Below are positions 21,581-23,207 of a DNA stretch of 33,562 bases, one piece after another. The stretch is from Oligoflexia bacterium. GTDB lineage: Bacteria; Bdellovibrionota; Bacteriovoracia; Bacteriovoracales; Bacteriovoracaceae. Below the pieces are notes generated by a model that was given only the letters and a program-made list of their open reading frames with translations, was not told the DNA's origin and made no database searches. The first letter of the stretch is position 1, and each line of letters begins with the position of its first letter. The translations under genes and the position numbers were made by a program. The stretch spans positions 1-33,562 of the forward strand of contig JADGAN010000050.1 in the NCBI GenBank assembly GCA_015231955.1, written 5' to 3'.

Positions 21581-22238
21581 AATTGCTCTCCACCATCACC
21601 AAGAGTGCACACTGGTTGCTGTCTCCAAAACCCGCCCTCTAGAAGAGATTATTATCGCCTATGAGGGGGCCGCCGGGCAGCGCCACTTTGGCGAAAATCG
21701 CCTAAAAGAGTTGGAACAAAAAGCACAAAGCATCGCTTTGAATAAAAAGCAGAGCGAGATTGCATGGCATTTTATTGGAAACCTACAGAGTAACAAAATA
21801 AGGCCACTCTTAAAAATCCCTCAACTCAACTTTATTCACTCTATCGATTCCATAAAACTGCTCGAACTTTTATACGAACACACTTTGCAAGAAACCCCCT
21901 TGTACTATTTCTTACAAGTAAACACCTCTGGTGAAGGCGAGAAGGGGGGATTTAAGAGCTACCAAGATCTGCTGGTGGCATGCGAGTGGATCACTCAGCA
22001 CCAAAAGCTACGCCCGCAGCTTCACTTCCACGGTCTGATGACGATGGGTCGCATTCGCACAAGCGATGTGCTTGCCGATGCTCACCACTCTTTCCAGATG
22101 CTCCAAGAGTACAGAGACCAACTCACGACAAGAGCTGGCCATCCACTCCACCTTTCCATGGGTATGAGTCAAGACTACCCAGTAGCACTCCAGTATGGTA
22201 GTAGCTACCTGCGGATCGGCAGCACCATCTTCTCTTAA
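21516..22238 (+). CDS. yggS: YggS/PLPBP family pyridoxal-phosphate homeostasis protein
   Basis: About 240 residues starting at ATG 21516 (MKKMIAIHEH) or at 21525; longer frames reach deep into the upstream gene. It is a PLP-binding TIM-barrel protein without known enzyme activity that controls free PLP and amino-acid balance. Family marks: LVAVSKTRP (K38 carries PLP), HFGENRLKELEQKA, WHFIGNLQSNKIRPLL, FIHSIDS, FLQVNTSGEGEKGGF, HGLMTMGRI, LSMGMSQDYPVALQYGSSYLRIGSTIF. All conserved blocks are present and in order. Translation probably depends on the overlapping upstream gene, as no strong ribosome site is seen. It converges with the SecDF-P1-head-like gene (4-base overlap of stops). Confidence 0.92.
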   Translation: MKKMIAIHEHTITNNILKIKSEIALHHHQECTLVAVSKTRPLEEIIIAYEGAAGQRHFGENRLKELEQKAQSIALNKKQSEIAWHFIGNLQSNKIRPLLKIPQLNFIHSIDSIKLLELLYEHTLQETPLYYFLQVNTSGEGEKGGFKSYQDLLVACEWITQHQKLRPQLHFHGLMTMGRIRTSDVLADAHHSFQMLQEYRDQLTTRAGHPLHLSMGMSQDYPVALQYGSSYLRIGSTIFS

Positions 22239-22711
22239 AAGTGTTGCAGTTGCTTTAACACTTTTTCAAAGCCAGCTTTACTTTTAAAGGTGATTTCAAA
22301 ATTTTGATCACTTAAAATACTCTTAATCTTTGGCGCAGTGATAACTTTGTTATTATGAACAATTGCCAGTCTCGTATTGAAGTATTTTTGTGTCAGTAAG
22401 GTCAGCGCCTTGGCATCTTTTTCATTAAGAAAAAACTTGATGCCGGCACGTTCGCCCACCACTTTTTGAAAATCAAAATCTTTCACCACCAGGGCCGGAT
22501 CTTTAGTCAGCGGTAATAAACACTCTTTGCCATACTCAAAACACTCTTTACTGCTGCTTTTGTGAGCGTTTTTGCTAACCTTCACGGGATAAATTTCAAA
22601 ATGATCACCAGTAGCGTGATGAATGTTTGCATCTAAAAACTCTCGTGTATACGCCGGTGAAAGTGAAAAAAAGATCGAGGTCAACACAGAAAATAGTAAA
22701 TATTTTTTCAT
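22235..22711 (-). CDS. Stand-alone SecDF P1-head-like periplasmic protein
   Basis: About 158 residues from the ATG at 22711, with AGGAG (22725-22721) nine bases upstream. A signal peptide (MKKYLLFSVLTSIFFSLSPAYT) directs export. The segment AGIKFFLNEKDAKALTLLTQKYFNTRLAIV, then NNKVITAPKIKSIL and NFEITFKSKAGFEKVLKQL, matches the SecDF P1-head pattern (V.F.L...GA..F..LT..N.G..LAIV.DG.V..AP.I), the periplasmic part of SecD/SecDF that helps pull exported chains. No SecDF transmembrane helices or P1 base are present, so this is the head alone. A CFEYGKEC pair may form a disulphide. It lies downstream of the putative arrest-peptide gene, and its ribosome site sits in a hairpin (22718-22787). A role in export follows from domain and context, not from proof. 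Confidence 0.75.
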   Translation of the reverse strand: MKKYLLFSVLTSIFFSLSPAYTREFLDANIHHATGDHFEIYPVKVSKNAHKSSSKECFEYGKECLLPLTKDPALVVKDFDFQKVVGERAGIKFFLNEKDAKALTLLTQKYFNTRLAIVHNNKVITAPKIKSILSDQNFEITFKSKAGFEKVLKQLQHF

Positions 22712-22717
22712 AAAAAA

Positions 22718-22787
22718 AATCTCCTGAAAATTTAAATTTCCTAAACTAAAAAAATAAGCGAGAGGGGACAACTATTTTCAGGAGATT
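22718..22787 (-). promoter_or_regulatory. Hairpin sequestering the ribosome site of the P1-head-like gene
   Basis: In the transcript the 5' arm AATCTCCTGAAAAT (22787-22774) is perfectly complementary over 14 bases to ATTTTCAGGAGATT (22731-22718), with a 42-base loop. The 3' arm contains the AGGAG ribosome site of the gene starting at 22711. The 5' arm contains the Ile and Ser codons and the stop of the upstream gene. If a ribosome pauses with the second Pro codon of RAPP (22789-22787) in its A site, its leading edge covers roughly 12-13 further bases, essentially the whole 5' arm, releasing AGGAG. The complementarity is seen directly; the regulation is inferred from SecM and VemP. Confidence 0.75.
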
Positions 22788-23098
22788 GGAGGGGCCCTGA
22801 TCAACACACCAGGGTGAACGTTACGCAGGGAACGGAGGGGCCGTTCACTATTAAAAGATACTTCGTTCGTAATAGCGAAGAGTAAAGGTTCACCTTTGGC
22901 GTGCAAGCAATCAACTTTAAAGCAATCAGCACCACTCTTGGTAGCTACAGAAGATAATGAGGATGAGGATAAAGGTGATAAGGAAGAGAGAGCATTTTGA
23001 GGATCCGATAACTCGTCACTTTGTACGTTTATCACGACCACCATAAGGCCGAAAAGCAAACATGAATAAATAAAAAACTTTTTCTGCTCTAGCTTCAT
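22778..23098 (-). CDS. Putative export-monitoring ribosome-arrest peptide (RAPP motif)
   Basis: About 106 residues from ATG 23098 (MKLEQKKFFIYSC); a longer frame from 23161 adds 21 residues before the signal. No strong ribosome site is seen for either start. An N-terminal signal or anchor segment (FFIYSCLLFGLMVVVINVQS) is followed by a Ser-rich linker (~40-55), a small region with CFKVDC, and the C-terminus HPGVLIRAPPIS. R101-A-P-P104 lies two codons before the stop. RAPP/RAPG is the core of arrest peptides of the ApcA/ApdA/ApdP type, which monitor Sec export, and IRAPP resembles IRAGP of SecM. The size, exported N-terminus, end-located motif, and downstream hairpin plus SecD-like gene all match a force-relieved arrest regulator. 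Stalling itself is not proven. It is divergent from nfeD, sharing a 109-base region. Confidence 0.72.
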   Translation of the reverse strand: MKLEQKKFFIYSCLLFGLMVVVINVQSDELSDPQNALSSLSPLSSSSLSSVATKSGADCFKVDCLHAKGEPLLFAITNEVSFNSERPLRSLRNVHPGVLIRAPPIS

Positions 23099-23207
23099 AA
23101 TTGAAAGATGGTAGGCCCGATTGTAAATGTCAACCGCACGAAAGAAATTTTCCATGCCCATTTCATTTTTAGTGTTCTATACTCTAGAAATTGTATGGAG
23201 GTCTCTT

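Follow-up and report, generated by a model that had tools for sequence, protein, structure and literature searches.

A short leader gene and the gene directly downstream of it, which codes for an exported stand-alone homologue of the SecD P1 head, recur as a pair in eight genomes of one phylum. Gene order, the C-terminal motif of the leader and its spacing from the hydrophobic core are shared among them, the homology and fold of the P1-head product are clear, and in the window (the whole stretch of 33,562 nt analysed here) a predicted hairpin covers the Shine-Dalgarno sequence of the downstream gene. The preliminary description of this DNA had proposed a RAPP-type arrest peptide with a Sec-component gene downstream; at sequence level this reading is supported by the conserved motif, geometry and gene order and by the P1-head identity. 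It is very probable that the leaders are a new group of arrest peptides of the RAPP type, unusual in their target, with a geometry conserved over two families and, in the window, with a clear predicted mRNA switch, and we consider it likely that leader and P1-head gene together act as a two-gene export-stress switch.

Leader ORF and its counterparts in related genomes

The proposed arrest-peptide leader, a putative monitoring substrate of 106 aa, lies on the minus strand at 22778..23098 and was recognized from the ORF reading and from seven counterparts. Its protein begins MKLEQKKFFIYSCLLFGLMVVV and ends VLIRAPPIS-stop (ORF 23098..22778). Reading by hand gives a signal-like N-terminus at residues 1–23 (23030..23098, minus strand) with a hydrophobic core at residues 9–23; a Ser-rich stretch occupies residues 38–50. 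A 106-residue ORF with an export signal, a Ser-rich linker and this very C-terminus had been claimed before and is borne out, and the coordinates given then for both genes are correct. The RAPP codons (residues 101–104; 22787..22798, minus strand) are predicted to place P103 in the P-site and P104 in the A-site, by analogy with ApdA and ApdP (PMC10951233, PMC12992588). The leader and the P1-head gene stand alone, flanked by genes on the opposite strand. A Pfam search with the window leader found no family and searches with the seven other leaders none above the cut-off, while a homologue search with the leader as query returned weak, unrelated matches only. An Rfam search of the window gave no family, and in a plain genome search the RAPP codon pattern was not commoner than its reversed control.

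Homologous loci were sought in genomes of the class and of the phylum, the queries being the P1-head protein and alignments that contain it; the searches covered 58, 129 and 369 genomes, in part the same ones. Seven further orthologues were found, six of them in the same family (G033, G017, G104, G094, G110 and G058) and the seventh in another family of the same phylum (G261). Directly upstream of each, on the same strand, is a leader ORF of 96–110 aa, with a gap of 31–64 nt to the P1-head gene (31–66 nt over all eight loci). Signal-like N-termini were judged by hand from the hydrophobic core, which is present near the N-terminus of every one of the eight leaders. The seven tails are, in the order of genomes just given, LRPRPPPKLF, SFKSIRAPPLV, CNSPRSPPYSLS, FFIRGPPQFS, MPARGPPSFYL, SGLSPPKLT and SLKARGPPLA; over the eight loci the motif reads RAPP twice, RGPP three times and RSPP, RPPP or LSPP in the others, and it always sits 2–4 residues before the stop. 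Within the last 12 residues R[AGSP]PP is found in seven of eight leaders and in none of the other ~700 ORFs (comparison set of 709 ORFs of at least 60 aa; Fisher p = 5e-16), which is more than chance.

The leaders align poorly among themselves (best E 6e-4), while for the P1-head proteins most pairwise alignments have E values between 1e-7 and 1e-40. All eight leaders keep a distance of 72–80 residues between hydrophobic core and P-site residue (mean 76.6, sd 3.2), well within the rule of the literature, by which the spacer between signal and arrest site is longer than 30 residues. A C-terminal RAPP that varies freely among homologues had been named as the observation that would speak against arrest; what the homologues show is that the motif, its position, the signal-to-stall distance and the gene order are conserved and the remaining leader sequence is not. 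A ruler and a tail that are kept, with free sequence in between, answer the needs of a nascent-chain sensor. Diverged in sequence but fixed in their spacer of 72–80 residues, the eight leaders also make up a natural comparison set for the requirements of Sec-sensing arrest peptides.

In mutagenesis of ApdA and ApdP the Arg was irreplaceable, Gly equalled Ala, and Ser, Asp and Pro were partly active, and random libraries yielded RxPP with Gly, Ala, Ser or Pro as x (PMC12992588). The R-type tails of the seven leaders comprise the same set of variants as the library RxPP. It should be noted that ApdA and ApdP require RAPP but that the motif does not suffice there (PMC7897499). The tail of G058, LSPP, is without the Arg held irreplaceable, and this locus is the one doubtful member; it resembles the uA_LPPP group of PMC10987492. 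This leader (L045, 2227–1922), with LSPP instead of RxPP, stands near the LPPP group of secA leaders, and LSPP is possibly an arrest motif in its own right.

The exported P1-head protein

The downstream gene (22235..22711, minus strand) codes for an exported stand-alone SecD P1-head-like protein of 158 aa, with a signal-like N-terminus and a domain at about residues 34–158, as defined by profile, fold and orthologues. It scores 33.4 bits against Pfam SecDF_P1_head PF22599 (cut-off 27, E 4e-8), and a PDB search with a profile of the eight P1-head proteins retrieved SecDF only (3aqo, E 4e-7). The AlphaFold2 model of the product has a mean pLDDT of 80, and residues 34–158 of the model match the SecDF P1 head (5xan, Z 11.5; 3aqo, Z 10.6), with the best unrelated chain at Z 4.5. 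The earlier assignment of this gene as SecDF P1-head-like thus stands on a profile above cut-off, a fold match and orthologues. As a SecD or SecDF protein proper the product was rejected, for it has neither the six transmembrane segments nor the P1 base; the signal-like segment is the only one of its kind in the 158 aa, there is no membrane part, and the score against TIGR01129 (SecD/SecDF) is 28 bits with a cut-off of 244. Full yajC-secD and secF genes are present elsewhere in the genome of the window, and the P1-head product is therefore an extra part. No relative of it was found on any plasmid in a plasmid search.

The P1 head holds a substrate-binding cavity, and it has been proposed that VemP is released by movement of the head (PMC11470409). 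In soluble form the head could either bind chains as they leave SecYEG or take the place of the head of SecD.

Other stand-alone SecD-P1-head proteins occur in the phylum (L084, L102, L103 and L104; ~170–360 aa), and two of these carry a TM segment at the C-terminus; as members of the present family they were rejected, being of different subfamilies and having no RAPP leader. The assembly of the window also contains a second secD-secF pair (L069 and L113, G000 contig 48), which is rather unlike the first in type. This contig could be foreign to the bin (3% contamination; the genome exceeds most relatives in size).

Close cysteine pairs are seen, in the window and at L041, L010 and L042, in several leaders and in some P1-head proteins, at positions that are not conserved. 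The leader of the window has C59/C64, that of G033 C32/C37 and that of G094 C42/C46, and the P1-head protein of the window has C57/C64. These pairs bear on the alternative that survives best, namely that the leader is a true arrest peptide sensing some other envelope stress, such as disulfide formation or metal (compare CruR and copper), and that the P1-head protein serves in the periplasm under that stress. RAPP leaders do precede metal and thiol homeostasis genes as well (PMC12992588), and the close pairs in the leaders of the window, G033 and G094 fit such a role. We nevertheless hold this alternative to be unlikely, because the downstream gene codes for a Sec-component domain at all eight loci, the Cys positions are not conserved and the mature leader of G058 is without Cys.

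Promoter and start of the leader

A −35 element TTGACA (23128..23133, minus strand) is separated by a spacer of 17 nt from a −10-like element CATCTT (23105..23110, minus strand), identified by comparison of the loci, which ends 6 nt before the leader ATG. At seven of eight loci TTGAC lies 33–35 nt before the leader ATG, a position at which only one of ~274 other ORFs has it (p = 2e-12), and a hexamer like CATCTT follows 16–18 nt after TTGAC and 4–7 nt before the ATG. The loci at which promoter elements adjoin the leader ATG in this way are the window (23098-23133), L010, L041, L042, L043, L045 and L077. Seven of eight leaders are without a Shine-Dalgarno sequence, and the P1-head gene has one at all loci. 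The exception is G017, where the promoter lies farther upstream and the leader does have a Shine-Dalgarno sequence. Since promoter elements stand so close to the ATG and a Shine-Dalgarno sequence is missing, transcription is expected to begin at the start codon or close to it, and the mRNA of seven of the eight leaders is probably leaderless. The word 'leaderless' is absent from four papers on arrest peptides in which it was looked for.

Hairpin over the Shine-Dalgarno sequence of the P1-head gene

The leader ends in the mRNA as AGG GCC CCT CCA ATC TCC TGA AAAT, with ATTTTCAGGAGATTTTTTTTATG 42 nt downstream. Pairing and folding tests delimit a hairpin on the minus strand whose 5' arm, AATCTCCTGAAAAT (22774..22787), spans the last codons IS-stop and carries an anti-Shine-Dalgarno sequence, and whose 3' arm, ATTTTCAGGAGATT (22718..22731), includes the P1-head Shine-Dalgarno AGGAG (22725-22721). 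In this stem AAUCUCCUGAAAAU (22787-22774) pairs with AUUUUCAGGAGAUU (22731-22718) over 14 bp with no mismatch, and none of 200 shuffles was as stable (z −3.8). A stalled ribosome was modelled at P103/P104 with a reach of ~15 nt past the first base of the P-site codon; its footprint takes in 11 nt of the 14-nt 5' arm, and the computed cost of opening the Shine-Dalgarno sequence is 9.45 kcal/mol for the free mRNA versus 2.83 with the ribosome stalled at RAP-P. No shuffled or synonymously recoded tail reached the observed closure (p = 0.008, which is the floor of the test).

In G033 the sequence AAAACUCUUU (codons KLF) pairs with AAGGAGUUUU over 10 bp with one G-U (p = 0.002), at the same place as the window stem and with a different sequence. 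The stems of G104, G094, G110 and G261 are of 5–8 bp (p 0.10–0.19), that of G058 is of 4 bp, and G017 has none of note. The combined p for stem pairing is 0.0002 for all eight loci, 0.005 without the window and 0.096 without the window and G033; in the accessibility test the loci other than the window, taken together, were not significant. With two clear loci and the rest weak, the stem is therefore established, as a prediction, for the window and well supported for G033, and at these two loci the layout is predicted to resemble that of SecM and VemP, with the downstream Shine-Dalgarno sequence sequestered in a stem that the stalled ribosome overlaps.

The Pro-Pro codons CCT-CC (22792-22787 in the window, for example) are themselves an anti-Shine-Dalgarno sequence, and therefore the same codons can serve both as PP stall site and as 5' arm in a control stem. 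They have this double part in the folds predicted for L042 and L045, and could have it in L077.

The same hairpin, with its run of eight T, might be taken for an intrinsic terminator past which a stalled ribosome permits RNA polymerase to read, and indeed the 3' arm in the window runs into uninterrupted T before the ATG. Such transcription attenuation we judge very improbable: the T-run lies between the Shine-Dalgarno sequence and the ATG, the loop measures 42 nt, a terminator scan (limited to loops of 3–8) gave no match, and at the other loci the T-run is absent or short while the Shine-Dalgarno sequence is there in all. Hardly any credence is due to the weakest alternative, that there is no arrest, the leader being a small secreted protein of the usual sort whose gene shares a transcript with the P1-head gene and whose C-terminal xPP is accidental or structural, for although stem support is weak in most homologues, the leaders scarcely align save in motif, position and spacing, and R[AGSP]PP is otherwise missing from the ends of ORFs.

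Proposed mechanism

In the export-stress switch that we favour, the leader would be made from its own promoter. As long as Sec export is healthy, pulling on the nascent chain would release the pause, and the ribosome would end two codons later and leave; the IS-stop region would then fold onto the Shine-Dalgarno sequence of the next gene and keep the P1-head gene off. When export is slow the pause would last, and with the stalled ribosome sitting on the 5' arm the Shine-Dalgarno sequence would be free. The exported P1-head protein would then be made and may help chains through the translocon, or to fold beyond it, without a full SecD/F. In this scheme we infer that the ribosome stalls, that Sec releases it and that the hairpin opens, and likewise what the P1-head protein does. 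The pair recurs in seven other genomes of the phylum, and therefore the cells probably make more of an export helper when secretion jams.

Much more tentatively, and as a possibility rather than an expectation, the soluble SecD P1 head might assist export independently. It would be induced by a Sec-monitoring arrest peptide on leaderless mRNA and, by pulling or binding nascent chains at the SecYEG exit, would also end the arrest of its leader, so that the two genes would close a feedback loop between themselves with no part for the SecDF motor. That a monitor should be devoted to the P1 head alone suggests that it pays to induce just this domain when export is under stress. Such induction is unexpected of a P1 head that serves merely as lever in a proton-driven membrane motor, and the question of the own role of the P1 head becomes directly testable.

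Comparison with known systems

At sequence level the leader has all the marks of Sec-monitoring RAPP/RQH peptides, being a small uORF on the same strand with a signal, a conserved C-terminal motif and a spacer. Like ApdA, ApdP and the RQH-family leaders found before secDF, it is small and exported and has RAPP, RGPP or RSPP near the stop (Sakiyama 2021, PMC7897499; Fujiwara 2024, PMC10987492; Morici 2024, PMC10951233); a long spacer after the signal, a Sec-related gene directly downstream and a patchy distribution are further likenesses. It differs from them in its unrelated sequence, in its probable leaderless start and in its target, an exported P1-head domain that stands alone, with neither a membrane part nor SecF. 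With SecM-secA and VemP-secDF2 it would share a downstream Shine-Dalgarno sequence held in a stem breakable by the stalled ribosome, as predicted here, while the arrest motif is another (GIRAGP in SecM) and the product is the P1 head only. CruR of Bordetella pertussis also has a C-terminal RAPP before the gene that it controls, but, as cited in PMC10951233 and PMC12992588, it responds to copper and precedes a TonB-dependent receptor. The product resembles the P1 head of SecD/SecDF (3aqo, PF22599) in sequence over residues 86–141 and in fold over residues 34–158, and departs from these proteins in having a signal peptide of its own and neither P1 base nor transmembrane segments.

Sec and YidC monitors in the cited literature control secA, full secDF or yidC, and the published screens (PMC10987492) took uORFs of genes found as homologues of SecA, SecDF or YidC. 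Judged by sequence, the leader described here belongs by motif to the RAPP/RQH group and by layout would work like SecM and VemP. It would be of a known kind, a Sec-monitoring RAPP/RQH arrest peptide, and the new part is its target.
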